DNA from: Desulfoglaeba alkanexedens ALDC
Lineage (GTDB): Bacteria; Desulfobacterota; Syntrophobacteria; Syntrophobacterales; DSM-9756
NCBI RefSeq assembly: GCF_005377625.1
Contig: NZ_CP040098.1
Coordinates: 620,001-684,000 of the forward strand
Direction: 5' to 3'
DNA length: 64,000 nt
Positions 2,499 to 52,146 of the stretch are shown here, one piece after another. The notes under the pieces are model-generated. The model saw only the letters and a program-made list of their open reading frames with translations. It made no database searches and was not told the DNA's origin. How positions within the stretch are numbered: the stretch's first letter is position 1; every line of letters begins with the position of its first letter. A program made the translations under genes and the position numbers.

Positions 2499-2529
2499 CC
2501 TTTTACCATCGGGTTCCCGTAAAGAACGC

Positions 2530-2700
2530 TTGCCTGCAGGTCTTCTGGCTCTCGGATCAACTGAAAGGTCGCGGCCTTCCCCCCGGGGTAAACCCCGGAA
2601 GTGACCGAGCCGACGCTCTTTGCGACCCTTCATCCCCGATCACAGCGGCGGGACCGCCACGGATTCGCACCGTGTTCCGGGATGCAGGAAGCCTTCCATC
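2530..2700 (-). promoter_or_regulatory. Cobalamin riboswitch aptamer controlling cbpAB
   Basis: Read on the minus strand the segment has the landmarks of the adenosylcobalamin aptamer in order: GGTGCGAATCC, GCGGTCCCGCCGCTGTGA, a GTCACTTCCGGG element, GGGAAGGC, and GAGCCAGAAGACCTGC at the 3' end. It is followed by an intrinsic terminator and then cbpA, which fits a transcriptional OFF switch. Confidence 0.93.
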
Positions 2701-2714
2701 GTCAAACCGTTCTC

Positions 2715-2744
2715 TTCATACGCGAAAACGGACGCACGTGTCAA
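2715..2744 (-). promoter_or_regulatory. Sigma-70 promoter of the riboswitch-cbpAB transcript
   Basis: On the minus strand TTGACA (2739-2744) and TATGAA (2715-2720) are 18 bases apart, directly upstream of the aptamer. The same boxes are conserved in the second copy. Confidence 0.75.
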
Positions 2745-2841
2745 GGGTGTCAGACCCCGTTTTCGACTTTCCTGCATCCGGAAAGCCTCCGCGTCGTTGC
2801 TCCCGATCGGGGAACCCGCTGGCGGCCCGGTGCACACCCCC

Positions 2842-2873
2842 AAAAAAAAAGCGGGGCCGTCGCCCCGCTTTTT
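2842..2873 (-). terminator. Terminator after hsp20 (copy 1)
   Basis: AGCGGGGC, a short loop and GCCCCGCT form a perfect stem flanked by A and T runs; on the minus strand it is followed by nine T. The A run on the other side means it could work in both directions. Confidence 0.85.
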
Positions 2874-2927
2874 CCGGAAGCGCTTCAGCACCGCCCTTAC
2901 GCCGCTTCGGCGTTTTCCAGACCGGCA

Positions 2928-3371
2928 TCAGCGCTTGACCGGAATCTTCTTCGGCTTCGCGGATTCCACCTTGGGAATCTCAATCCGGAGTACACCGTCC
3001 TTATAGACCGCCTCCACTTCATCGGCCTTCACTTCCACCGGAAGGCGGATGGAACGACTGAAAGACCCGAAACGCCGCTCCAGCCAATGGTAGGACTCAT
3101 CCTTCTCTTCCCGCTCCTGCTTCTTTTCACCGCTGACAGTGAGGACGTTGCCCACGATCTGTATATCGAGATCCTTCGCGTCAACACCGGGAAGATCGGC
3201 CTTCACCACGATCTTGTCCTAGGTTTCGGACAGGTCGAAGGCCGGAACCATCGGGATTTCCTCCCTCCTTACCGAAGGCATCCACTCATCGAAGAAACGA
3301 TCGAAAAGGCTCCACTCCCTTGGAAAAGCCAACGCACGTTCCCTGCGTTCCCATGGAATCAGTCCGAACAT
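2928..3371 (-). pseudogene. Small heat-shock protein Hsp20, copy 1, nonsense-mutated
   Basis: This is the left copy of the Hsp20/alpha-crystallin gene at 18214-18657. Codon 51, GAG (Glu) in the intact copy, is TAG here (3219-3221), so translation from the natural ATG at 3371 stops before the alpha-crystallin domain. A GTG 11 bases after the stop codon (3209) could give a 93-residue piece lacking the N-terminal arm and the first part of the domain, but no good ribosome site precedes it. The copy has also lost the -35 box found upstream of the intact gene, so it is probably silent. A sequencing error at one base cannot be excluded. Confidence 0.88.
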
Positions 3372-3436
3372 ATCCACTACCTCCTATCTCACCGATTTCT
3401 CAAGCCTATCTGATAATTCCGTTCCAAAATTAATTA

Positions 3437-3540: not shown

Positions 3541-3666
3541 CCGGGGTCCATGTCGAGGGGCTGAAGATTTCCGGAAGCAGAACGTGTTTCCGAAAATCTT
3601 TGACGACCCGCCGGTCCGTGTCTTCACGGGCGCACCAGCAGAAGTTCCACATCCACCGGCGCCTCA

Positions 3667-4053
3667 ATGAGCCCGTGGGCCATGGGCGCCTTCTTCACCG
3701 CCACCAGCATGATCGGGTTCATCGCCGGGGCCGGGATCGTGGTGCGAAACTCCATCATCCTGGTGGGTTTCATAGAGCTGCGCATCGCCGAGGGGATGGC
3801 CCTGGACTAGGCGGTCATCGACGCCGGGGCGGTGCGGTTCCGCCCCATGATGGTCACCGCCGCCGCCGTGGTGGTGGTGGGGGTCTCGGTGATCCTCTTC
3901 GATTCGATCTTCCAAGGGCTCGCCATCTCGCTGATGGCCGGCGAGGTCGCTTCCCTGGTCTTCTCGCGCATGACGGTGCCGATCCTCTACTACATGGACA
4001 AGCGCTGGGAGTTCGCCCACGGGCATCATCTGCATCGTTTGTTTTACGGCTAA
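3667..4053 (+). pseudogene. Fragment of RND heavy-metal efflux pump (CusA/CzcA type), C-terminal part
   Basis: The frame encodes the last membrane helices of a heavy-metal RND transporter, including [20 protein letters not shown] and [19 protein letters not shown], typical of the C-terminal third of CusA/CzcA-like pumps. The rest of a gene of about 1000 codons is missing, and a TAG stop interrupts the frame at 3808-3810. After DKRWEFAHG the frame runs into the truncated integrase gene. It is a dead remnant, probably brought in by the rearrangement that removed the end of intI. Confidence 0.85.
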
Positions 4054-4635
4054 AAATATCAGAAATTCCTTTACATCATCGGTTGAGAGAGACTCCGGGG
4101 GCTTGCTGTGTGTATAAGCTTGGAATGCTCGCACCCATCCTTGATAGCTCTTCAGAGTTTTGGGCGAATAATGTCGCAAATGGATTTCGTCCGCCAATCG
4201 CGCATATTCCGATTTCCAAGAAGCCCCGGATATCGGCTTTTCCCGAATAAACAAAGATTCTACTTTAACCCGCGTGCCCGGTCCTGCACCGATAGCACTC
4301 TGCTTCTTGTTGTCCAAAGGAGCGGTTTCCGGAGATACGGCGGTTCGCTGCAACGGTTGCTGGCAAGGAATCTTTCTTTCTTGAAAAAGCGCATAATACA
4401 GATTGATCGCCTTTACGGCCTGCTCCTGTTGCGCCTGTGATTGCTGTTTGTCCCGCAATTTTGCGATGAAAGGGTGCAGGCTCTGTAGATGATTGGGCTG
4501 AAAATGATATTTATGGCAGAAGTCCAGATAATAGCGGAGCCATTTTTGATACATCCCATGCAAGTTGTCCGGGATGGCCATATTCCGGAGATGTCCTTCG
4601 AATTTCAATTGTAATGCGGATGGAATTGCCAGCAT
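4036..4635 (-). pseudogene. intI: Integron integrase IntI, N-terminal half only
   Basis: Integron integrases are tyrosine recombinases that move cassettes between attC and attI. From the ATG at 4635 (GGAGG 7 bases upstream) the frame has an N-terminal extension of about 130 residues and then a core-binding domain including HYSPKTLKSYQGWVRAFQAY and [16 protein letters not shown], a good match to integron integrases. Homology stops near 4036 and the frame runs antisense into the RND fragment. The catalytic domain with the Arg, His-x-x-Arg and Tyr residues is therefore absent, so the integrase cannot be active. Its divergent position beside the cassettes is the normal integron layout. Confidence 0.85.
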
Positions 4636-4691
4636 CTGGAATCCTCCATTTTCCGGATAATTCTTATTTTGACATGATATACGGAAAGTCT

Positions 4692-4720
4692 GACATAAAC
4701 TATTGTCAAACACCTGTCAA
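4692..4720 (-). promoter_or_regulatory. Candidate promoter of intI
   Basis: On the minus strand TTGACA (4715-4720) and TATGTC (4692-4697) are 17 bases apart, about 57 bases upstream of the intI start. A second TTGACA overlaps it at 4704-4709. No clear LexA box was recognised. Confidence 0.4.
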
Positions 4721-5743: not shown

Positions 5744-5980
5744 GGCTAACAACCGCATTAACTCGGACTGGCAATTCCGCTGCGCTCCATTGCCATCCGG
5801 TTATGCGGAGCGTTCCTCCGGACGCGCTTCGCGCGTCCGGAGGAACGCGGCGCTCACTTCGTTCGCAGCCTGGTTCCGAGGCGCGCGAAGCGCGCCTCGG
5901 AACCAGGCTGCTTCACCTGACGTGGTGTCCGTCAAGCCTCTGGCTTGCCGTCCACCCCGCAGGTGAGCGCCGCGTTATGT
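5744..5980 (+). repeat. attC site 1 (unusually long, 237 bp)
   Basis: The site begins with GGCTAAC and ends with GTTATGT. Inside are several nested hairpins, including TCCGGACGCGCTTCGCGCG with its partner and a long stem around GAGGCGCGCGAAGCGCGCCTC. It is much longer than the other six sites (57-81 bp) and may be two fused sites. Confidence 0.75.
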
Positions 5981-7067: not shown

Positions 7068-7130
7068 ACATAACAATGCTCTTGCAGCGGATCGCAAAAA
7101 AACCGCGCCCGCTGAAGCGCCGCGTTATTC
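7068..7130 (+). repeat. attC site 2
   Basis: It begins with ACATAAC, the complement of the cassette 2 leading core GTTATGT, and ends with the next core GTTATTC. The interior has an imperfect stem (GCGGATCGC with GCGCCCGCT). Confidence 0.8.
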
Positions 7131-7245
7131 CCCCGGTCGGAGTGAAGGGTAATTGATTCGCCTATGTTAGATATTTTTGGACAGGACTACAGCCAATACT
7201 GGGGCGGAATTTGGCGACAATTCCGACGAAATAAAGGACTATATT

Positions 7246-9483
7246 ATGGAAATTATCATAGGCCTAATCATTTTTTATGTGATTTATCAATTTATTAAAG
7301 GGTTTTCCGGAAAAGGCAAGGCTACAGATAAAAATGAGGTAACCCTGCGTGTGGAAGTTTCCGGGCCGGGTGATTATAGCAGTAGCTATAATCGTTCAAG
7401 TCGTCCGGGCGGCCCGCCAGCCAAATGGTACGGGCCATCCATGAGCGTAAAGGTAAAAGACTATGATATCCCAGGGGGACTTGTCTATGTCGGCTCAAAT
7501 TTGCCTGATAATTATGGTTATGAAAATGATGCGTGCCTGATTGATCCCAGCCTTAAAGTGTCTGCCGCTGAACCATGGGAAGCCGGGGACCAGATGGGGT
7601 ACTGGCCAAAATTTCATAACATTCCAGCCAAAAGCCGCGGCGCATATTTGAAATGGCTTGTCGGTGGACGCTCAGAACCAGAAGCCTATATCGGCTATGT
7701 GTTTTTATTTTTTTACGGCCTTGAACGGCGCTTGATTGTCGATGGTGCAAAAGGAAAAGTTTCTTCACAAGAGCGATCTGCAATCGTAAATGAGGTCAGG
7801 AGGCTATTGAAAATATACGGCGGCAATCGTTCTTTTAGTGGTTATGCCAACAATTTCCTTGCTATGGAATGGGCGCTATATCAAAGCGATAATCCCGCTC
7901 CTTCCTATATTGATTTCGATGACCGATATTGTACCGAACCTTTTCAGTTGGTACTGGCAAAACATGTCGCAGATGGGAAACCCATTCCGGCCGATATGGC
8001 GCTTCAATGGTATCGCCTTAATCCAAACATGAGCCTTCGTACGCCTGCTCGCCGCTGTGCGAAAGAATTTAAGTACCTGTTTACTCGTCGGTATCAGACA
8101 AAATTTGGTGAAGGGATCATTGTCAAGCCCAACAAAACCCGTCTTAAAATTGATTATCGCGCTGCCAGCCCGTCCATTCGGGGAGATATGAAGCTTAAAG
8201 TGCCGGATTTGCCCAATCCTTTCATTTTAACGGGGCCCATAAACAAAATTAACGAGATAATTGACGAATGCACACAGGAACTGGACCCGTATAGCCGTTT
8301 TCTCGGCCGCAAAGGAAGCGACCCTAAATCATTGACTGCGCTTTCGTTGATCCCAAAAGAGCTTATAGCCCAGTCATCAGGAGCAAAGACCATTAGGGAT
8401 CGACTATCTCGAATTTGCCAGGACGGCATTGGCTTTCTTCCACTGGAAACTCTTTACAAAACAATTGGCCAAAAACCCCCAGTAAAGCTTCTGAAGAAAG
8501 AACTTGAAAGCCTGGCTTCCTTTATCGACAGCATGGGCTACGGAATCGCACCCGATATTCGTTATCACAACATGAAGCCAACCATAGATGGCAGTGTCAC
8601 GGTTTTCCCAAAGGGTCATGGCATGGATTTTATGCCTTCGAAAGAATTTCGCACAGTTGCTACTATCTTGAGGTTGGGGGCTATGGTGAGCCAAATAGAC
8701 AAAGACCTTGCTCCCGAAGAAGAGACAATCCTTCAAAGTCTCATTTCAGACAACCGGGAACTTACATCCATTGAAAAGGATTCACTCACGGCGTTCTTGC
8801 ACTGGTGTATTCATACGCCGCAAAATGCAGTTGGTCTAAAATCGAGACTTTCTGAAGTAAGCGAGACAGAAAAATCGGCGATCAGCCACATCTTGATTAC
8901 AGTAGCTCATGCTGATGGTGAAATCAAACCTGAAGAGATTAAACAGCTTGAAAAGCTATATACAACCCTTGGGTTAGACAAAGAACAGGTGACCGGCGAT
9001 ATTCATGCACTTGCCGCAAACAGTGGACCTGTTACAGTTGGGCTTAAAGATGAAGACGCCTCTTACGCTATACCGCAACCGGCAAAGCCACTTGGAACGT
9101 CAATGGGTTTTGTCTTAAATGAGGAGCTTATTCGAATCCGCAAAGAAGAAACCAAGCAGGTAAAAAGTGTACTTGAAGATATTTTTGCAGAGCAAGAAGA
9201 AAAAGAAGCCGAAGAGCCCCTCGCGGGAGCCACCGTTTCAAGCAATCCATTGTCATTGCTTGATACTGCCCACCAGCGTCTTTTCAATAGCCTGCTTGAA
9301 AAGGAAACCTGGGAAAGAGCGGCTTTCCAGGAAACCTGCAAAAGCTTGGGCTTGATGGTTGACGGGGCAATGGAGGTTCTTAATGAATGGGCTTTTGAAA
9401 ATGCAAACGCACCCCTGATTGATGATGGGGAGCCAATATATGTGGATGTAAGCCTTGCAAAGGAGATTGTTGATGTCCAATAA
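7246..9483 (+). CDS. sngA: Shango-like SngA: TerB-domain protein
   Basis: A 745-residue protein with one N-terminal membrane helix (MEIIIGLIIFYVIYQFI). A TerB-N domain follows (about 100-320), with the signature WPKFHNIP, YLKWLVGGR and GYVFLFFYGLERRL. A TerB-like helical domain lies around 490-590 (AHADGEIKPEEIKQLEKLY). The C-terminal domain is TerB-C-like (about 640-745). In Shango systems the TerB-like protein is one of three essential parts; its role in sensing or membrane contact is not established here. The start at 7246 has AAGGA upstream and places the membrane helix first; a TTG at 7177 would add 23 unlikely residues. The gene is AT-rich relative to the chromosome. Confidence 0.85.
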   Translation: MEIIIGLIIFYVIYQFIKGFSGKGKATDKNEVTLRVEVSGPGDYSSSYNRSSRPGGPPAKWYGPSMSVKVKDYDIPGGLVYVGSNLPDNYGYENDACLIDPSLKVSAAEPWEAGDQMGYWPKFHNIPAKSRGAYLKWLVGGRSEPEAYIGYVFLFFYGLERRLIVDGAKGKVSSQERSAIVNEVRRLLKIYGGNRSFSGYANNFLAMEWALYQSDNPAPSYIDFDDRYCTEPFQLVLAKHVADGKPIPADMALQWYRLNPNMSLRTPARRCAKEFKYLFTRRYQTKFGEGIIVKPNKTRLKIDYRAASPSIRGDMKLKVPDLPNPFILTGPINKINEIIDECTQELDPYSRFLGRKGSDPKSLTALSLIPKELIAQSSGAKTIRDRLSRICQDGIGFLPLETLYKTIGQKPPVKLLKKELESLASFIDSMGYGIAPDIRYHNMKPTIDGSVTVFPKGHGMDFMPSKEFRTVATILRLGAMVSQIDKDLAPEEETILQSLISDNRELTSIEKDSLTAFLHWCIHTPQNAVGLKSRLSEVSETEKSAISHILITVAHADGEIKPEEIKQLEKLYTTLGLDKEQVTGDIHALAANSGPVTVGLKDEDASYAIPQPAKPLGTSMGFVLNEELIRIRKEETKQVKSVLEDIFAEQEEKEAEEPLAGATVSSNPLSLLDTAHQRLFNSLLEKETWERAAFQETCKSLGLMVDGAMEVLNEWAFENANAPLIDDGEPIYVDVSLAKEIVDVQ

Positions 9484-10792
9484 AAAACCCAAGCTTCGCC
9501 CAAGAGAACGTGACGCCATAATCCAATCGCTTCGTGCCGGGGTTACTCCACGAACGGGTTTACAACATATACAGGTCGGGCGCGTGAAAGAGGTTGAAGC
9601 GCTGCTTAAGGATATCGAACGAGTAGTAGACGGTGGTTCAGCGTTTCGCCTTATTATTGGAGATTTTGGTTCCGGCAAAAGCTTTTTTTTGCAGTTGATT
9701 CGAATTATTGCCCTTGAAAAAGGGCTTGTAACTATTCATGCCGATCTTGCACCCGATAGGCGTATCCACGCCACAGGGGGCCAGGCAAGGAATTTATATG
9801 CCGAATTGATGCGCAACCTTTCCACGCGAACCAAACCGGATGGAAATGCGATTACCAGCGTCGTTGAAAAATTCATCACCGAGGCCAGAAAAAGGGCCAA
9901 AGCTACGGACCAGAAAGTTAATGCCGTCATTGAATCAAGGCTCAACAGTTTAACGGAACTTGTCGGAGGTTACGATTTTGCCAAGGTAATTTCTGCTTAC
10001 TGGCAAGGACACAAAGAAGAAGACGAACAACTCAAGGTGGATGCAGTTCGTTGGCTCCGCGGTGAATTTTCGACCAAGACCGATGCCAGACAGGCTTTGG
10101 GCGTGAGGTCAATTGTTACCGATTCTAGTATATATGACCATTTGAAACTTGTCAGCTTATTTGTAAGGCAAGCTGGATATGGCGGGCTTTTGGTCATGCT
10201 TGATGAAATGGTAAATCTTTACAAGCTTTCCAGTAAAAAAGCCCGAGTATCGAATTACGAGCAGATTTTGCGAATGCTTAATGACTGTCTTCAGGGAAGC
10301 GCAGAACATATTGGATTTTTGTTCGGTGGAACACCTGATTTTCTGTACGATCCTCGAAAAGGACTATTTAGCTACGAGGCTCTGCAATCCAGACTTGCGG
10401 AAAACACTTTCGCCAAAGCAGCTGGCGTTATCGATTACACGTCTCCAATCCTCCACTTAGCAAGCCTTGCGCCTGAAGAGGTATATGTCCTGCTTGGAAA
10501 TTTACGCCACGTCTTTGCCTCCGGGGACCCTGAAAAATACCTGGTTCCAGATGAAGCTCTGGCATCGTTTTTGGAACACTGTTCCAAGAAAATCGGTGAT
10601 GCCTATTTCAGAACTCCGCGAAACACCATCAAGGCCTTTGTCGATATGCTGGCAGTTTTAGAGCAAAGCGAGACCTTAAAATGGCACCAGCTTATCGAGC
10701 GGGTGGATATTCAGCAAGAGATAAATACTGATATGCCCGATATTGAGACTGACGTTTCTGAAGATGATGAACTTGCAACATTTAGGTTATAA
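9473..10792 (+). CDS. sngB: Shango-like SngB: BrxD/DUF2791-type ATPase
   Basis: A 439-residue P-loop ATPase of the DUF2791 type, the family also found as BrxD in type 2 BREX systems. The Walker A motif is GDFGSGKSFFLQL (near residue 62) and the Walker B region is GGLLVMLDEMVNLY. Further family features are LFGGTPDFLYDPRKGL and SRLAENTFA. The ATG at 9473 overlaps the end of sngA by 11 bases and has AAGGAG upstream, so the two are translated together. It is thought to act with the neighbouring helicase on invading DNA; the mechanism is inference. Confidence 0.86.
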   Translation: MSNKKPKLRPRERDAIIQSLRAGVTPRTGLQHIQVGRVKEVEALLKDIERVVDGGSAFRLIIGDFGSGKSFFLQLIRIIALEKGLVTIHADLAPDRRIHATGGQARNLYAELMRNLSTRTKPDGNAITSVVEKFITEARKRAKATDQKVNAVIESRLNSLTELVGGYDFAKVISAYWQGHKEEDEQLKVDAVRWLRGEFSTKTDARQALGVRSIVTDSSIYDHLKLVSLFVRQAGYGGLLVMLDEMVNLYKLSSKKARVSNYEQILRMLNDCLQGSAEHIGFLFGGTPDFLYDPRKGLFSYEALQSRLAENTFAKAAGVIDYTSPILHLASLAPEEVYVLLGNLRHVFASGDPEKYLVPDEALASFLEHCSKKIGDAYFRTPRNTIKAFVDMLAVLEQSETLKWHQLIERVDIQQEINTDMPDIETDVSEDDELATFRL

Positions 10793-10801
10793 GTAGGCTT
10801 C

Positions 10802-13006
10802 ATGAGCGAATCTATCGGCTTTAATAAACTGCATAAAGGTGTTCAAAAATGGATTTGGAGCCAGAAATGGGCTTCGCTCAGGGACATTCAAGAAGAAGCC
10901 ATCGAACCTGTTTTAGATGCTGATTGCGATATTGTCATTAGCGCATCCACTGCTGCCGGCAAAACTGAAGCGGCCTTCCTTCCAGCTTGTTCTAAGCTAA
11001 TAGGGCAATCCCCTGATGGTGTCGGCATTTTATACATAAGCCCGCTTAAGGCCCTTATAAACGATCAATACCGAAGGCTCCAGGGCCTTTGCGAGATTCT
11101 GGGTATTTCAGTAACCCCGTGGCACGGTGATGTCCTGCGGTCAGTTAAAATAAAGCAGCGGAAAAACCCAAACGGCATTTTGCTTATAACGCCTGAATCG
11201 CTGGAATCACTATTATTAAACCAGGGCAGCTGGTGCTCAAAGGCATTCAAATCACTGTGCTATATTATCGTGGATGAATTTCATGCCTTTTTAGGCACCG
11301 AAAGGGGTTGTCAGCTCCAATCCCTTATGCATCGGCTTGAATTTCTGATTCAGCGAACGATCCCTAGAATTGCTTTAAGCGCTACCCTCGGCGATATGAA
11401 ACAGGTGGCCGATTCCCTGCGACCAAACAAGAGATTGCCCTGCAAAATTATTGAATCGACTGTCTCCCATTCTGATTTAAAGATACAGCTCAGAGGCTAT
11501 CTGACGCCGGCACAGCAAAACGAAGAAACAGAATCAACAATGGATGAGATCATCGGGGATCTTTACAAGATTTTGAGGGGCAAATCCCATTTGGTTTTTG
11601 CCAACAGCAGGGCGCGTACTGAGGAAATAGCAGCAAAGCTGTCCGACCTGTGTGTGCAGAGCTTGGTTCCCAATGAGTTTTTTCCTCACCATGGCAGCCT
11701 TTCCAAAGAAATCCGCGAAAGCTTAGAGGCACGGCTTCAAAAGGAAAAGCTGCCGACAACTGCAGTTTGCACAATGACCTTAGAGCTTGGGATTGATATC
11801 GGCAGCGTTGATTCTATCGCGCAGGTGACATCTCCCCATTCCGTTGCCAGCCTGAGGCAGCGACTTGGTCGTTCCGGAAGGCGTGGTGAGCCTTCTGTAT
11901 TAAGGCTTTTCATCCCAGAGGACGAAATAACGGTCAACAGCCATCTTCTTGATCGCTTGCGCGTACACACGGTTCAGTGCATTGCGATGATCAACTTGCT
12001 TTTGAAAAAATGGTATGAGCCTGCTTCTTTAAATCAATATCATTTCTCAACATTGGTACAGCAAACGCTTTCTGTGATCGGTCAGTATGGTGGCGTCCGT
12101 GCTCAGCAGCTATGGGCCCTGCTATGCGAAACAGGCCCATTTTCAGTCGTTGACCAGAGCTTGTTTGCAATATTTTTGCGTGGATTGGGTGAAAATGATT
12201 TAATCACACAAACCGCGGACGGGCAGCTTGTTTTAGGGTATAAAGGGGAAAAGATTGTCGAGCACTATACCTTTTACACGGCTTTTAACACTCCGGAGGA
12301 ATACAGACTTGAGTATAATGGAAAAGCCATCGGTACGGTTCCAATAGACAAGCCTCTGGTTCGCGAGCAACACATTATATTTGCCGGGAAACGTTGGGAG
12401 GTTTTATTCGTTGATGATGAAAACAAACTGATCGGACTAAAAACGGCCAAAGGCGGAAAACCCCCTAAATTTAGCGGTGATGGCCTTATGGTACACGATA
12501 TTGTACGGCAGGAAATGCGGCGGGTTTATAGCGAGAAAATTACTCCCGTCTATTTAAATGATGCCGCCAAATCGATCCTTAAAGAAGGAATAGACAACTA
12601 TCATGCATTAAATCTCGATAACAAGCAGATTATCCAGGCAGGCAGCACGGTTCATGCCCTTCCATGGCTTGGGGACCAGACAATCAACACGATAACTGTC
12701 CTTCTTCGAATGCACGGATTGTCGGCAGACTGCTTTGGCGGGATTATCGATATAAGAAATACCACCATTAACGATTTTTTTTCGGCAGTTAAACATATCC
12801 TAAGCAACACCAAGGTAAGCCCTACAGAGCTTGCAAGCCTTATTCCCAATACAATCATTGAGAAGCATGATCCTGTGATCCCAAAAGAATTGCGAGATAT
12901 CGGATATGGAGCCAGATCATTTAATGTGGATGCTGCCTACAGTTGGATTAACAGGCTGTGGCATAACCATAGCGTTCACAGGACGCTCGTGACCTCGCGC
13001 CTGTGA
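10802..13006 (+). CDS. sngC: Shango-like SngC: Lhr-like superfamily 2 helicase
   Basis: A 734-residue DEAD/DEAH helicase resembling Lhr and BrxHI. Visible motifs are ASTAAGKTEAAF (motif I), DEFHAFLGTERGCQ (motif II, DEFH), ALSATLGD (motif III), VFANSRARTEE (motif IV), TMTLELGIDIGSVD (motif V) and QRLGRSGRR (motif VI). An Lhr-type winged-helix and C-terminal region follows. The stop codon lies inside attC 3, so the last 15 or so residues (HNHSVHRTLVTSRL) are encoded by the attC itself. The natural C-terminus may therefore have been replaced when the cassette formed. No pglX, pglZ or brxC lies nearby, so this is not a BREX cluster. Confidence 0.87.
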   Translation: MSESIGFNKLHKGVQKWIWSQKWASLRDIQEEAIEPVLDADCDIVISASTAAGKTEAAFLPACSKLIGQSPDGVGILYISPLKALINDQYRRLQGLCEILGISVTPWHGDVLRSVKIKQRKNPNGILLITPESLESLLLNQGSWCSKAFKSLCYIIVDEFHAFLGTERGCQLQSLMHRLEFLIQRTIPRIALSATLGDMKQVADSLRPNKRLPCKIIESTVSHSDLKIQLRGYLTPAQQNEETESTMDEIIGDLYKILRGKSHLVFANSRARTEEIAAKLSDLCVQSLVPNEFFPHHGSLSKEIRESLEARLQKEKLPTTAVCTMTLELGIDIGSVDSIAQVTSPHSVASLRQRLGRSGRRGEPSVLRLFIPEDEITVNSHLLDRLRVHTVQCIAMINLLLKKWYEPASLNQYHFSTLVQQTLSVIGQYGGVRAQQLWALLCETGPFSVVDQSLFAIFLRGLGENDLITQTADGQLVLGYKGEKIVEHYTFYTAFNTPEEYRLEYNGKAIGTVPIDKPLVREQHIIFAGKRWEVLFVDDENKLIGLKTAKGGKPPKFSGDGLMVHDIVRQEMRRVYSEKITPVYLNDAAKSILKEGIDNYHALNLDNKQIIQAGSTVHALPWLGDQTINTITVLLRMHGLSADCFGGIIDIRNTTINDFFSAVKHILSNTKVSPTELASLIPNTIIEKHDPVIPKELRDIGYGARSFNVDAAYSWINRLWHNHSVHRTLVTSRL

Positions 13007-13021
13007 CGCTAACCGTTGGGC
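12961..13021 (+). repeat. attC site 3, overlapping the 3' end of sngC
   Basis: It begins with GCATAAC and ends with GTTGGGC. The stem pairs AGCGTTCACAGG with CCTGTGACGCT, leaving one bulged T, and the loop holds CGCTCGTGACCTCGCG. The sngC stop codon TGA (13004-13006) lies in the second arm of the stem. Confidence 0.82.
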
Positions 13022-13043
13022 ACGTAAAAGGAGGTAACATAAC

Positions 13044-13514
13044 ATGATTCCAGTTCAAGAAGCAATTACAGGCAAGGAAAACCAAGGACAATTATCGTCT
13101 CCATGTCAGGCACTTGTTCAGTTCTACCGCGCTTTCAATCGGGGTGATATGAAAATGATGTCAGAGAACTGGGCACAGTCTGACGAAATTGCAATGGACA
13201 ACCCACTTGGCGGTATCAAGCGCGGCTGGGCTGAAATTCAGCCAATTTACGAACGCATATTTAACGGCCCCGCCGAAGTGTACGTCGAGTATTTCGACTA
13301 CACCATCCACGAAACGACGGAAATGTTTTACACCGTAGGAAGGGAGCGAGGATATTTCCGCTTGGGTGGCGAGGAAATAACTCTTGCTATTCGCACGAGC
13401 CGAATTTTCCAGAAAATCGATGGTCACTGGAAACAAGTCCACCATCATGGCTCAATCGAAGACCCGCAGTTATTGGGTAGGTATCAATCGGCTGTTTTGG
13501 GTAAGAGATCGTAA
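13044..13514 (+). CDS. SnoaL/NTF2-like domain protein (cassette 4)
   Basis: A 156-residue protein of the NTF2/SnoaL-like fold (YybH-like). The pattern is ALVQFYRAFNRGDMKMMSEN, then a hydrophobic pocket half ending in WKQVHHHGSIEDP. Such single-domain proteins are frequent in integron cassettes; substrates vary and none can be named here. A strong AAGGAGG site lies 9 bases before the ATG. The cassette starts at the GTTGGGC core at 13015. Confidence 0.8.
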   Translation: MIPVQEAITGKENQGQLSSPCQALVQFYRAFNRGDMKMMSENWAQSDEIAMDNPLGGIKRGWAEIQPIYERIFNGPAEVYVEYFDYTIHETTEMFYTVGRERGYFRLGGEEITLAIRTSRIFQKIDGHWKQVHHHGSIEDPQLLGRYQSAVLGKRS

Positions 13515-13516
13515 AT

Positions 13517-13597
13517 GCCTAACAAGTCCATCAACTCGGGCAGCCAAAAGCGCCGCTTCGCCCTACTTTTGGCTGCCGGTTATGTCCAACGTTGGGC
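13517..13597 (+). repeat. attC site 4
   Basis: A textbook attC: GCCTAAC, then CAACTCGG, an imperfect stem of GGCAGCCAAAAG with CTTTTGGCTGCC, CCGGTTATG, and the core GTTGGGC. It begins 2 bases after the stop of the preceding gene. Confidence 0.92.
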
Positions 13598-15725: not shown

Positions 15726-15789
15726 GCCCAACAACCGATTGCAGCTGACGGTCCGCTACGCGGCCCAGCACTGAACCGGGACGTTAGCT
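15726..15789 (+). repeat. attC site 5
   Basis: It begins with GCCCAAC, the perfect complement of the cassette 5 core GTTGGGC, and ends with core GTTAGCT. The interior has an imperfect stem around GGTCCGCTACGCGGCC. Confidence 0.88.
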
Positions 15790-15800
15790 CTATCAATCCC

Positions 15801-16733
15801 ATGGATAACTCAACATATTCCACTTCCGAATCTGACAGCATGGTGAGTCGAGCTGACCTGCCCGGCGAAGACCGCGAAGTTCAGCTGGACGTAATGCGTA
15901 CATGGTTTTTCCAGAATTTTGAGGATCCTGCCGAACGAACTCCATATGAGTCTGCTGAGGGTGGCTACATATGGATCTGGGGCGGACCTTATGAAGCGCG
16001 AGAAGAGTTGGAGGACGAATTTGGTGGCGTTGTCCCAGACGAAGTTATTGAAGAGCTCTCAGAGGAGCTTGACGCCATTTGTTGGCAGTGGGCTCCAACC
16101 GAAACGCCCGGGGATTACGACGAATATCTTGCTGACGATATCGCGCAGATCACAGAATTCTACCATAACTTTTCTGGCGCGATATTGGACATCGAAAAGA
16201 TGCTAGAAGCGAAAATTGATAGCTCTGCAGAGGATTGCTTTTTCCGGCTCCTATACGTCAACGTAATTACGGCAATGGAAACCTACCTGTCAGATGCGTT
16301 CATGAATTCAGTAGTACCTGACAAGGAACTTATGCGCCGCTTTGTGGAGACAACGCCAGAATTTAAGGTAGAAACAATCTCCCTGTCTGAGGTGTACAAG
16401 GCTGCAGAAGAAATTGAACATAAAGCCAAGTCGTATCTGGTTGATGTAGTCTGGCACAACTTAGGTCGCGTAAAACCGATGTAAAAAGCTGTTCTCGGAA
16501 TTGAGTTCAACAACGAAATAGGCGATCTAGTGAAGGCGATTCTGAAGCGCCATGACATTGTTCATCGGAATGGAAAGACGAAATCTGGCGAAAACATTGT
16601 TCTGACCAAGAATGATGTAACGCAGCTTGTCTCTAAGGTCGAACACTTCATTCAAGACATTGATGTCAAAATGAGAGAAATAAGAGCTAACAAAGAAATG
16701 CAGCCGACCGCTGACACGGCGGCTGATTTCTGA
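15801..16733 (+). pseudogene. HEPN-type protein interrupted by an in-frame stop (cassette 6)
   Basis: The frame from the ATG at 15801 runs to TAA at 16482-16484 (227 residues). It continues in the same frame without a gap for 82 more codons to TGA at 16731. The distal part contains KRHDIVHRNGKTKSG, an R-x4-H arrangement typical of HEPN ribonuclease or abortive-infection domains. The proximal part is acidic with EDCFFRLLYVNVITAMETYL, the first helices of such a domain. A single nonsense mutation thus removes the presumed catalytic motif. The last codons overlap attC 6, as in sngC. If the stop is real the product is likely inactive; a sequencing error at one base is possible. Confidence 0.72.
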
Positions 16734-16741
16734 CGTTATGC
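16685..16741 (+). repeat. attC site 6
   Basis: It begins with AGCTAAC, the perfect complement of the cassette 6 core GTTAGCT, and ends with core GTTATGC. The stem is CAGCCGACCGC with its partner in GGCGGCTG. It overlaps the 3' end of the HEPN gene. Confidence 0.88.
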
Positions 16742-17369: not shown

Positions 17370-17432
17370 GCATAACAACGGGTTCAACTCGGACGCGGGC
17401 AAAGCCCGCGCCGGTTAACCCGGCCGTTAGTC
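17370..17432 (+). repeat. attC site 7
   Basis: GCATAAC pairs with the cassette 7 core GTTATGC. A typical interior follows, with CAACTCGG, the stem GCGGGCAAAGCCCGC and CCGGTTAACC, ending with core GTTAGTC. This is the last attC of the array. Confidence 0.92.
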
Positions 17433-17641: not shown

Positions 17642-17853
17642 ACTGGACTGATGAAGCGGAACGATGGCTCAAGGATATTCACGACTACATAACTCAGGAT
17701 AGCCCAGAATCAGCAGTACGGGTAGTTGAAGCTATCTACGAAAAGGCACAATTGCTGGGTCGGTTTCCAGAAGTAGGCCATAGGTACGATAGAATCCCAG
17801 ATCGACATGAAAGAACGCTTGCCTGCAGGTCTTCTGGCTCTCGGATCAACTGA
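17629..17853 (+). pseudogene. RelE/ParE toxin truncated by repeat copy 2 (cassette 8)
   Basis: The first 60 residues are toxin-like (INWTDEAERWLKDIHDYI, SPESAVRVVEAIYEKAQLLG, FPEVGHRYDRIPD). At 17810 the frame enters the direct repeat, and the last 14 codons are antisense riboswitch sequence. The C-terminal strands that carry the active-site residues of this superfamily are missing, and so is the cassette's attC. This marks the right end of the island. Confidence 0.85.
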
Positions 17854-17989
17854 AAGGTCGCGGCCTTCCCCCCGGGGTGAACCCCGGAAGTGACCGAGCT
17901 GGCGCTCTTGGCGACCCTTCATCCCCGACTACAGCGGTGGGACCGCCACGGATTCGCACCGTGTTCCGGGATGCAGGAAGCCTTCCATC
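17819..17989 (-). promoter_or_regulatory. Orphan cobalamin riboswitch aptamer (copy 2)
   Basis: All aptamer landmarks of copy 1 are conserved, from GGTGCGAATCC to GAGCCAGAAGACCTGC. The expression-platform terminator at 2444-2498 is not part of the repeat, so here the aptamer is followed directly by sequence antisense to the truncated toxin and the higBA cassette. Confidence 0.9.
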
Positions 17990-18003
17990 GTTAAGTCGTT
18001 CTC

Positions 18004-18033
18004 TTCATACGCGAAAACGGACGCACGTGTCAA
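18004..18033 (-). promoter_or_regulatory. Promoter of the orphan riboswitch
   Basis: TTGACA (18028-18033) and TATGAA (18004-18009), 18 bases apart on the minus strand, are identical to copy 1. Transcription would run antisense into the right end of the cassette array. Confidence 0.7.
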
Positions 18034-18128
18034 GGGTGTCAGACCCCGTTTTTGACTTCCTTGCCTCCGGAAAGCCTCCGCGTCGTTGCTCCCGATCGGG
18101 GAACCCGCTGGCGGCCCGGTGGACACCT

Positions 18129-18159
18129 AAAAAAAAGCGGGGCAGTCGCCCCGCTTTTT
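18129..18159 (-). terminator. Terminator after hsp20 (copy 2)
   Basis: AAGCGGGGCGACTGCCCCGC followed by a run of T on the minus strand; the stem is conserved against copy 1 with one compensated difference in the loop region. Confidence 0.85.
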
Positions 18160-18213
18160 CCGGAAGCGCTTCAGCACCGCCCTTACGCCGCTTCGGCGTT
18201 TTCCAGACCGGCA

Positions 18214-18657
18214 TCAGCGCTTGACCGGAATCTTCTTCGGCTTCGCGGATTCCACCTTGGGAATCTCAATCCGGAGTACACCGTCCTTATAGACCGCCTC
18301 CACTTCATCGGCCTTCACTTCCACCGGAAGGCGGATGGAACGACTGAAAGACCCGAAACGCCGCTCCACCCAATGGTAGGACTCGTCCTTCTCCTCCCGC
18401 TCCTGCTTCTTTTCACCGCTGACCGTGAGGACGTTGCCCACGATCTGTATATCGAGATCCTTCGCGTCAACACCGGGAAGATCGGCCTTCACCACGATCT
18501 TGTCCTCGGTTTCGGACAGGTCGAAGGCCGGCACCACCGGGATTTCCTCCCGCCTTACCGAAGGCATCCACTCATCGAAGAAACGATCGAAAAGGCTCCA
18601 CTCCCTTGGAAAAGCCAACGCACGTTCCCTGCGTTCCCATGGAATCAGTCCGAACAT
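18214..18657 (-). CDS. Small heat-shock protein Hsp20 (intact copy)
   Basis: A 147-residue small heat-shock chaperone that holds unfolding cytoplasmic proteins. The N-terminal arm (MFGLIPWERRERALAF) is followed by the alpha-crystallin domain from about residue 42 (DLSETEDKIVVKADLPGVDA) to VYKDGVLRIEIPKVE, with the conserved GVL pattern, and a tail ending KKIPVKR that holds an I-x-V motif. The start is the ATG at 18657, 8 bases after AGGAGG; in-frame GTG codons just upstream overlap the ribosome site. It has its own promoter at 18713-18740 and a terminator downstream. Confidence 0.95.
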   Translation of the reverse strand: MFGLIPWERRERALAFPREWSLFDRFFDEWMPSVRREEIPVVPAFDLSETEDKIVVKADLPGVDAKDLDIQIVGNVLTVSGEKKQEREEKDESYHWVERRFGSFSRSIRLPVEVKADEVEAVYKDGVLRIEIPKVESAKPKKIPVKR

Positions 18658-18712
18658 ATCCACCACCTCCTATCTCACCGATTTCTCACGCCTATCTGAT
18701 AATTCCGTCTCA

Positions 18713-18740
18713 AAATTAATTCCGCTTGAACACTTGTCAA
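18713..18740 (-). promoter_or_regulatory. Promoter of intact hsp20
   Basis: On the minus strand TTGACA (18735-18740) and TAATTT (18713-18718) are 16 bases apart. The -35 box lies outside the direct repeat, so copy 1 lacks it. Confidence 0.6.
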
Positions 18741-26644: not shown

Positions 26645-27062
26645 ATGGGACGGCCTCCCTCGCCTATGCAGTCGGTACGATCATGCGGGTCGAATCTTCA
26701 ACGTACAAGGCTCCATAGCCGATTTCCGCCGACGATTCAATCACTTTGTAACAAAACTTTGTAACAAAACCTCCCGCCGGGCCGATCTTTATGATAATTC
26801 CCACCGGCTCCGCGCCCCGTCCCACGGGGGACAGAAAGAACAAAGGCGGTCGGGGATCGTGCGACCAATGGACACCTTAAGCAAAAAGGATAACGAAGGT
26901 CAAAAGATCCCCCTCCCCCCTCCCCTTAATCCCCTCCCACAAGGGGAGGGGAAATAGAATTTTCCCCTCGTTCCCAAGCTGGAGCTTGGGAACAAGAAGG
27001 TGGATGCTGGAGCTTGGGAACAAGGTGGATGGTGAAGCTTGGGAACAAGATGGAGCGCTTCG
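26645..27062. repeat. Intergenic block with palindromic repeat families
   Basis: The right half holds a C/G-rich element (CCCCTCCCCTTAATCCCCTC then its complement) at 26900-26956, followed by the palindrome GTTCCCAAGCTGGAGCTTGG GAAC at 26970-26993 and two half copies to 27047. The left part holds TTTGTAACAAAACTTTGTAA repeats near 26740-26770. No gene is seen. Confidence 0.8.
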
Positions 27063-33507: not shown

Positions 33508-34036
33508 ATTAAGCCTCCCAGTTGCGTATTTATTATCTTTGAGGGTATCTACATTACTCAAATTATCCGCCCCTAACATACTGGATTTCCCCTCGTTCCC
33601 AAGCTCCAGCTTGGGAACAAGGTCGAAAAATCCCCCTCTCCCTTGATGGGAGAGGGTTGGGGTGAGGGTGAGAAAATTAACGTATGTCAATCAGTTACAT
33701 TCCCCTCCCCTTAATCCCCTCCCACAAGGGGAGGGGAAATAGAATTTCCCTCGTTCCCAAGCTATGGCTTGGGAACGGACTCATGGAAATCGAAGCTGGA
33801 GCTTCTGCACAGTTGTGTTCCCAAGCTGGAGCTTGGGAACAAGAAGTTGAAGTCGCACGTTTACAAGGGATTCACCTCGGGTTGTGTTCCCAAGCTGGAG
33901 CTTGGGAACAAGAAGCAAAAGATCTGCACCCTTCTATGCACTGGAACACTGCGTCGGCCCGAGCCGCGTAGAAGTCCCAGAAGCGGTCTGCACGAAGATC
34001 GTCCGCAGACCACTTTCCCTGGATCTCCCCGACATC
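33508..34036. repeat. Cluster of palindromic repeats
   Basis: Between 33590 and 33915 lie at least four copies of the GTTCCCAAGCTnnAGCTTGGGAAC palindrome (33595, 33755, 33818, 33887 approximately). Two C/G-rich elements of the CCCCTTAATCCCCTCCCACAAGG type and a TCCCTTGATGGGAGAGGG element lie between them. Spacing is irregular. 33916-34036 is unremarkable. Confidence 0.82.
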
Positions 34037-45836: not shown

Positions 45837-46362
45837 ACGGCGGCCCTTTGAGAAGGACAACGAGGTATTGCCTGTTTCCACCCTGTTCCCAAGCTTCACC
45901 ATCCACCTTGTTCCCAAGCTCCAGCTTGGGAACACAACTGTGCTGAAGCTCCAGCTTCGATTCCCATGAGGCCGTACCCAAGCCAGAGCTTGGTAACGAG
46001 GGGAAAATGGGGCACCTGTAGGAGGCCCGCCCTCGGGCCGATGAGGCGGGGCATAGGGGTTTGTTCATCGCGGCTGAGGCGCCGCTCCTGCAACGGCTCA
46101 TGCCCTGTAGGAGCCGGCTTGCCGGCGACCAGCGTCAACGGGGCATTACCGGTTTTACGGGTCGCGGGCAAGCCCGCTCCTACAAGAACAAGGATCCTCA
46201 GGTCCTGACTAGCATGAACTTGTTTTTGGACACGCTCTTTCCGTTTTCCCGAAACCATCGGACCGACCGCAGGGAGGCCCAAGCGCGCGGCATGTCTCAT
46301 GGAGCAGGCATGCGCCGTGACGGCACTTCCTCCGGCCTGTAGACACAGAGGTTGAACTCATC
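45837..46362. repeat. Intergenic repeats: CCAAGCT palindromes and TAGGAGC elements
   Basis: Copies of the GTTCCCAAGCTCCAGCTTGGGAAC palindrome lie near 45888-45935. A second family, of the form TGTAGGAGCCGGCTTGCCGG then CGACC, lies at 46016-46195 in inverted pairs around GGTTTTACGGGTCGCGGGCA. No gene is seen before the start of the baeRF gene. Confidence 0.8.
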
Positions 46363-47523: not shown

Positions 47524-47754
47524 AGCGCTTCGGCAAAAAAACGAAGGTCGAAAAATCCCCCTCTCCCCCTCTCCCCCTCCCCTTAATCCCCTCCCACAAG
47601 GGGAGGGGAAACAGAACTTGGCATCAAATATTACGTCTATTCCCCTCGTTCCCAAGCTCCAGCTTGGGAACGCCCTCACCGAAGCTGGAGCTTCTGCACG
47701 GTTGTGTTCCCAAGCTGGAGCTTGGGAACAAGAAGAAAACTTCCGTGAAAAAGC
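47524..47754. repeat. Intergenic palindromic repeats
   Basis: Contains the C/G-rich element with TTAATCCCCTCCCACAAGGG at 47560-47607 and two CCAAGCTnnAGCTTGG palindromes (near 47649 and 47706). No gene is seen. Confidence 0.8.
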
Positions 47755-51550: not shown

Positions 51551-52146
51551 CGCCGCTCTTACAACGACTCATACCCTTCCACCTTGTTCCCAAGCTCCAG
51601 CTTGGGAACACAACTGTGCAGAAGCTTCAGCTTCGATTGAGGCCGTTCCCAAGCCATAACTCCCGAACGAGGGGAAAATTCTATTTCCCCTCCCCTTGTG
51701 GGAGGGGATTAAGGGGAGGGGGAAGAGGGGGATTTTCCACCTTGTTCCCAAATTCTATTTCCCCTCCCCTTGACGAGGGGAAAATTCTATTTCCCCTCCC
51801 CTTGTGGGAGGGGATTAAGGGGAGGGGGAACAAGGGGAAGGCCCTGGAAATACTCGAAGATTCTTTCGACGGACTGGTCTTGAAGGCCCCGACGGACCGG
51901 ATGAAAAGGGCGTACTCCGTGCGGTGAAGCAATCTTCAGGACTAGTGCTTGCTGTCGAAGTTTTTTTCATTATAATTAATAAAGTTTGTTGCAACTGACC
52001 TGGCCCGACGGTCGTCTTCTTCCCGACCCGACGGCGGCATACGGCCTGCAGTGGTCCCTGCGAAGATCAGCCCGATCGTTCGGGTTCGGAAGGAACCCAA
52101 CGAGCCTGCATTCTCGGCTCCGGGATCGCTTTGAAGGAGGGCCCCC
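51551..52146. repeat. Intergenic palindromic repeats and promoter region
   Basis: 51585-51835 holds the GTTCCCAAGCTCCAGCTTGG palindrome and two or three tandem copies of the C/G-rich CCCCTTGTGGGAGGGGATTA element, arranged nearly head to tail. 51949-51976 holds a promoter for the U32 gene. No gene is seen. Confidence 0.8.
51949..51976 (+). promoter_or_regulatory. Promoter of the U32 family gene
   Basis: TTGCTG (51949-51954) and TATAAT (51971-51976), 16 bases apart, about 170 bases upstream of the start at 52147. Confidence 0.6.

Follow-up and report, generated by a model that had tools for sequence, protein, structure and literature searches.

The helicase gene sngC of Desulfoglaeba alkanexedens ALDC runs into an integron recombination site (attC 3) and stops inside it. 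This locus raises the question of whether cassette formation replaced the original 3' end of the gene, or whether the site arose within the coding sequence. The window analysed is the whole stretch of 64,000 nucleotides, and positions refer to it. The gene and the parts of the site are as follows:

10802-13006, + strand: sngC, helicase gene, 734 aa (PADLOC SngC 6.9e-273, and alignment)
13004-13006, + strand: sngC stop codon TGA, inside the L' arm of attC 3
12961-13021, + strand: attC 3 (sequence reading, two scanners, and folding)
12961-12967: R'' box of attC 3, GCATAAC
12971-12982: L'' arm of attC 3, AGCGTTCACAGG
13000-13010: L' arm of attC 3, CCTGTGACGCT
13015-13021: R' box of attC 3, GTTGGGC

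The overlap covers 46 nt of the 61-nt site, and codes for H721-L734 (tail region HNHSVHRTLVTSRL). Codon 720 is TGG, with two bases before attC 3 and the third base being the first of R''. The TAA of R'' is out of frame for sngC, and 14 residues are added before the next stop. The first-pass annotation had placed this stop in the second stem arm, and had assigned the last 15 or so residues to attC. Both statements are borne out by the coordinates of the ORF and the site, with 14 residues being attC-coded. The PADLOC SngC profile match covers residues 6-718 of the protein, up to profile position 719 of 720.

The attC 3 site and its cassette array

The core boxes of attC 3 have the sequences of an attC site, with R' fitting GTTRRRY and R'' ending in AAC. 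R'' and R' form Watson-Crick pairs at five of seven positions, plus one G-T pair. Like other attC sites, attC 3 has an L''/L' stem in which L'' carries one extra, extrahelical base. Single-stranded DNA folding of the 73 nt around the site gave z = -2.9 for the bottom strand and -2.5 for the top strand. Two scanners were applied, each with 20 shuffles as the control. The first scanner, which is too permissive for long sites, scored attC 3 at 16.5. It was replaced by a home-made, structure-based scanner, which scored attC 3 at 14.5, the maximum of the window; the best site per shuffle of the 64 kb (first-order Markov, + strand only) scored 11.0-14.1, below attC 3 in all cases.

The cassette array spans about 4,900 to about 17,440 of the window. 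It is a same-orientation array, with five + strand sites found by scanner and two more recognised by eye (attC 1 and attC 5, both missed by the second scanner). The features of the array and its surroundings are as follows:

3664-4713, - strand: integron integrase remnant (Pfam Phage_int_SAM matches only; catalytic domain missing)
5744-5980 (approximate): attC 1, by eye, about 237 bp, unusually long with large palindromes
7068-7130, + strand: attC 2, upstream border of the Shango cassette (scanner)
7124-13015, + strand: cassette with sngA-sngB-sngC and attC 3, 5,891 bp from the R' box of attC 2 to that of attC 3
7177-9483, + strand: sngA, TerB-domain protein, start codon uncertain (PADLOC SngA 2.5e-83; Pfam TerB_N/TerB/TerB_C)
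9470-10792, + strand: sngB, BrxC/D-like ATPase (PADLOC SngB 1.3e-185)
13517-13597, + strand: attC 4, after the SnoaL-like gene at 13044-13514 (scanner)
about 15726-15789: attC 5, by eye
16685-16741, + strand: attC 6 (scanner)
17370-17432, + strand: further array site (scanner)

A genuine attC lies at 12961-13021; it is accepted as such because of its context in the same-orientation array. That the symmetry is a chance palindrome is hardly conceivable: the best of 20 shuffles did equal the first-scanner score of attC 3, but the second scanner ranked the site above 20 of 20 shuffles, both R boxes and the extra base in L'' are present, and the site stands in an array with unrelated genes on either side. 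In function, as a substrate for recombination by an integron integrase, attC 3 is putative.

The SngA, SngB, and SngC genes identified by PADLOC are consecutive on the + strand, in one operon. All three proteins are in the same order as in the PADLOC models of the Shango system, and the cassette is predicted to carry an anti-phage defence function. Unlike the Shango models, the system here forms one 5.9-kb integron cassette, and its SngC has a foreign tail. A three-gene system in a single cassette of 5.9 kb is far above the usual cassette size. The median CDS length given in PMC5371416 is 575 bp in mobile integrons, and 362 bp in sedentary integrons.

The integrase remnant has two SAM-like stretches, the second of which is a partial repeat of the N-terminal part of the profile. 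The frame of this ORF continues into sequence that looks like an RND efflux gene on the other strand. No integrase gene over the TIGR02249 cut-off (265 bits) was found in the genome, and the best match reached 85 bits; the region thus lacks the intact integrase gene of a complete integron. Since the resident integrase has no catalytic domain and the genome holds none over the cut-off, the array is probably not mobile by its own means, and attC 3 is probably frozen here. A foreign integrase could act on the array. A 915-bp direct repeat (2521-3435 and 17810-18721, 96.5% identical) flanks the whole integron region, and carries a cobalamin riboswitch and, by sequence reading, an hsp20-like sequence. 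This repeat could be a mark of how the island was inserted or duplicated. The Rfam scan identified two cobalamin riboswitches, and gave no attC match. Short dispersed repeats (72-100% identical, both strands) were also observed at 26881-27054, 33594-33919, 45877-46008, 47533-47739, and 51583-51838.

The C-terminus of SngC and its homologues

Homologues of SngC were collected from 80 kept genome-contig loci, one related genome, and one plasmid (82 in all). The alignment took in the 81 with a complete 3' end; one locus (L013) is incomplete and was left out. W715 is common to 72 of the 81 homologues, and the alignment columns through 719 are filled in all 81. Residue 720 of SngC is matched in none of 80 homologues, and residues 721-734 show no conservation among the 81. 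The conserved SngC therefore ends at the attC border, with homology to residue 719, as conservation in the alignment stops there. Past the column of residue 718, the median length among the homologues is 3 residues, versus 16 in the present SngC. In 79 of the 81 there are 14 or fewer, and the remaining two have 19 and 23, so that a long end alone is not abnormal; this counts against reading the SngC end as a replaced one. Among the nearest homologues (72-75% identity), the final residues are ...SCLNDIAK, ...QWFSELSG, ...EWMERLTL, and ...QWMERLTLNRQS, while the present SngC ends in ...SWINRLWHNHSVHRTLVTSRL.

This alignment had been proposed in the first-pass annotation, to see if the native C-terminus might be longer, or might diverge past residue 715 or so. 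The native end is usually shorter, and the divergence begins after 719 rather than near 715. Homologues sharing the same C-terminal residues would have made the attC-like symmetry coincidental; the tail occurs in 0 of the 81. Apparent matches past 719 in two loci (L034 and L047) were rejected, as the match continues past the stop of the reading frame. Another, in the plasmid hit (H1), was also rejected, the annotated gene ending at locus position 7193 and the match extending to 7220.

The AlphaFold2 model of SngC (40-sequence alignment) has a mean pLDDT of 83.7. The terminal helix, from 709 onward, is well determined to residue 720 (pLDDT 94 for 711-720), and is followed by a poorly determined tail (67 for 721-730 and 43 for 731-734).

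Origin of the SngC tail

The best explanation, held with high confidence, is that an attC was attached to the 3' end of sngC, and that the native end was lost or overrun, leaving an attC-coded tail. An ordinary integron site, attC 3, would have been joined straight onto the 3' end of the Shango sngC gene, presumably as part of cassette formation. With the native last codons and stop absent or overrun, ribosomes would run on into attC 3. They would cross R'' with its TAA unread in frame, pass through L'' and the loop, and halt at the TGA in L'. The protein would thus receive 14 residues without ancestral meaning after the conserved part. The tail, presumably translated and harmless, is probably tolerated in SngC, because the C-terminal end varies among homologues. 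Read-in of this kind is also seen in other integrons, where six of 144 surveyed cassette ORFs (described below) stop more than 20 nt inside attC.

Replacement of the original 3' end is the better of the two readings offered in the first-pass annotation. It holds in essence, as attC starts at the end of homology and the tail is attC-coded. The native stop may have been removed by the joining of attC at codon 719 or directly behind it, or a border stop may have disappeared only later. No near-identical cassette copy, and no SngC above 75% identity, was found in the genomes, plasmids, viral contigs, and genome-contig loci searched. Among 97 genomes (the own genome and relatives), the two matches at E 1e-50 were the own copy and one at 49%. 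In 706 plasmid records, all matches to the SngC cassette were below 60%; the best match was 51% in viral contigs (five), and 75% in the 80 kept loci. This counts against the best explanation, as it leaves the precise junction and the ancestral stop hidden from view.

A narrower version of this explanation, with chances somewhat short of even, is that sngC once ended at a stop of its own, on the attC border or directly ahead of it, until a point mutation or indel opened the way for translation into attC 3. The border-spanning codon 720 is one change from TGA or TAG, and an end 1-3 residues past 718 would be within the normal range of the homologues. Stops just before R'' are also common elsewhere, with 82 of the 144 surveyed ORFs ending before R''. 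However, only two of the 144 end at +1 to +5, which would make an original stop at codon 720 (+1) unusual in turn, and the ancestral copy was not found in the genomes, plasmids, viral contigs, and loci searched.

The overlap might also be kept for expression, with ribosomes that enter the stem melting the attC hairpin in the mRNA and helping the next cassette. The next gene starts at 13044, 37 nt from the sngC stop, and has a strong Shine-Dalgarno-like sequence (AAGGAGGT). A review (PMC8876359) describes attC hairpins in mRNA as impeding ribosomes, and a short ORF inside attC as able to relieve this. The L stem is present in the RNA fold of 12940-13075, but this fold is no stronger than that of shuffles (z = -0.27), and most surveyed cassettes are without such read-in. 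This effect is considered unlikely.

Evolution of the attC within the sngC coding sequence, the other reading of the first-pass annotation, is very improbable. In its favour, the sngC frame continues into the site, and PMC8618304 describes attC sites as tolerating sequence change; against it, the site begins where homology ends, and belongs to a same-strand array. This reading is not supported, because none of the 81 homologues has the tail residues.

Read-in and reading frames in other integrons

Overlap of a gene with its attC is already known in integron cassettes, where the frame likewise enters attC and the cassette is compact; the depth of the sngC overlap is uncommon. The ACID annotation rule, as given in PMC2674596, allows an overlap of at most 15 bp, whereas the sngC overlap takes in 46 of the 61 nt and reaches the L' arm. 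In the accounts of dfrA7 (PMC4353713) and ddl (PMC7691350), the stop is in the R'' box, and attC similarly supplies the stop. Unlike these two genes, sngC passes the R'' TAA out of frame, and a 14-residue tail is added. Synthetic attC sites inside protein genes (Nivina et al., as described in PMC8618304) are also read as protein. According to that description they were engineered, and chosen to keep the protein, whereas the sngC case is natural and terminal, and changes the protein end.

Stop positions were surveyed in stretches adjoining integron integrase genes (TIGR02249 hits), of which 121 were longer than 500 bases; the expected strand was scanned. A home-made attC finder was used at a cut-off of 12, which gave 0 arrays in shuffled copies of 86 loci, although single sites can be false. 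The yield was 52 arrays, 211 attC sites, and 144 distinct cassette ORFs; 66 of the 211 sites had no qualifying ORF. The ORFs counted were at least 100 aa long and ended between 100 nt before attC and its end, with duplicates removed by their last 60 bases. Besides the ORFs ending before R'' or at +1 to +5, the stop lies exactly at +6 (the TAA of R'') in 49 of the 144, at 7-20 nt in five, and beyond 20 nt in the six deep cases. Raising the cut-off to 13 leaves 2 deep cases among 79. On the same scale, the sngC stop is at +46. Pfam recognised one clear family among seven read-in ORFs (DUF1643, with the match reaching residue 142 of 159); two others had weak matches below the cut-off, and four had none. 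Some read-in ORFs may not be genes, as Pfam is clear in only one of the seven.

The first-pass annotation also noted a similar overlap between the HEPN gene and attC 6. The frame (15801-16733) does reach a TGA at 16731-16733, 49 nt inside attC 6 (+49 on the survey scale), but an in-frame TAA (16482-16484) interrupts the gene ahead of an RxxxxH-like stretch (RHDIVH). If the interrupted HEPN is counted, two of seven cassettes of the present window are read into deeply, the other stops being judged by eye. Against an earlier stage of the survey, this gives p = 0.03 (Fisher) versus 3 deep ORFs of 110, and p = 0.09 versus 7 of 110 ORFs past R''. Deep attC-coded tails resembling one another were observed in L179:1554-2195, L253:1127-1894, L255:7929-8567, and the HEPN frame of the window; examples are ANKPIQQMPKNGAADG, NKANAADAKSRAAD, PNKVLHRIADKSGSR, and ANKEMQPTADTAADF.

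The ORFs that stop before attC are about equally distributed among frames 0, 1, and 2 (31, 23, and 28). The counts for ORFs that enter attC are 49, 12, and 1. The excess of frame 0, which meets the R'' TAA, over one third has p = 2.6e-13, and frame 1 exceeds frame 2 with p = 0.013; these values assume independent ORFs, an assumption that cassettes of one array may violate. The requirement that ORFs stop by the attC end lowers the frame 2 count, as fewer sites hold its stop (120 of 211, versus 159 of 211 for frame 1). When 200 nt past attC were allowed, the counts were 50, 12, and 2. Both sngC and the HEPN frame are in frame 1. The likeliest source of the bias is selection against long foreign tails, together with frame 1 more often meeting a stop inside attC.

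A wider proposal is that attC is a recurrent donor of protein C-termini under a frame rule. Genes joined to attC with no stop of their own would nearly always enter in frame 0, ending at the R'' TAA, or in the frame 1 of sngC and HEPN, with frame 2 hardly ever used; the tails would begin with xN and have about 14 residues, and read-in may be selected through melting of the mRNA hairpin. As a whole this proposal is unlikely. No description of attC-coded tails so deep, or of the frame rule, was found in the literature searched, in which subscription papers are thinly covered; older work on the 59-base element may well contain such descriptions. It is the frame rule that merits testing on a larger scale. 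If the proposal is true, part of the cassette proteomes would bear a recognisable attC-coded tail.

A C-terminal tail on a cassette protein should be taken as functional only after a test. The sngC locus provides a clear natural example of a protein end rewritten by a recombination site, and dozens of native homologues mark the old end. Many cassettes take their stop from attC, which fits with attC having been joined very close to, or inside, the gene end. Together with the survey of stop positions, the sngC locus offers a way into the question of cassette formation.
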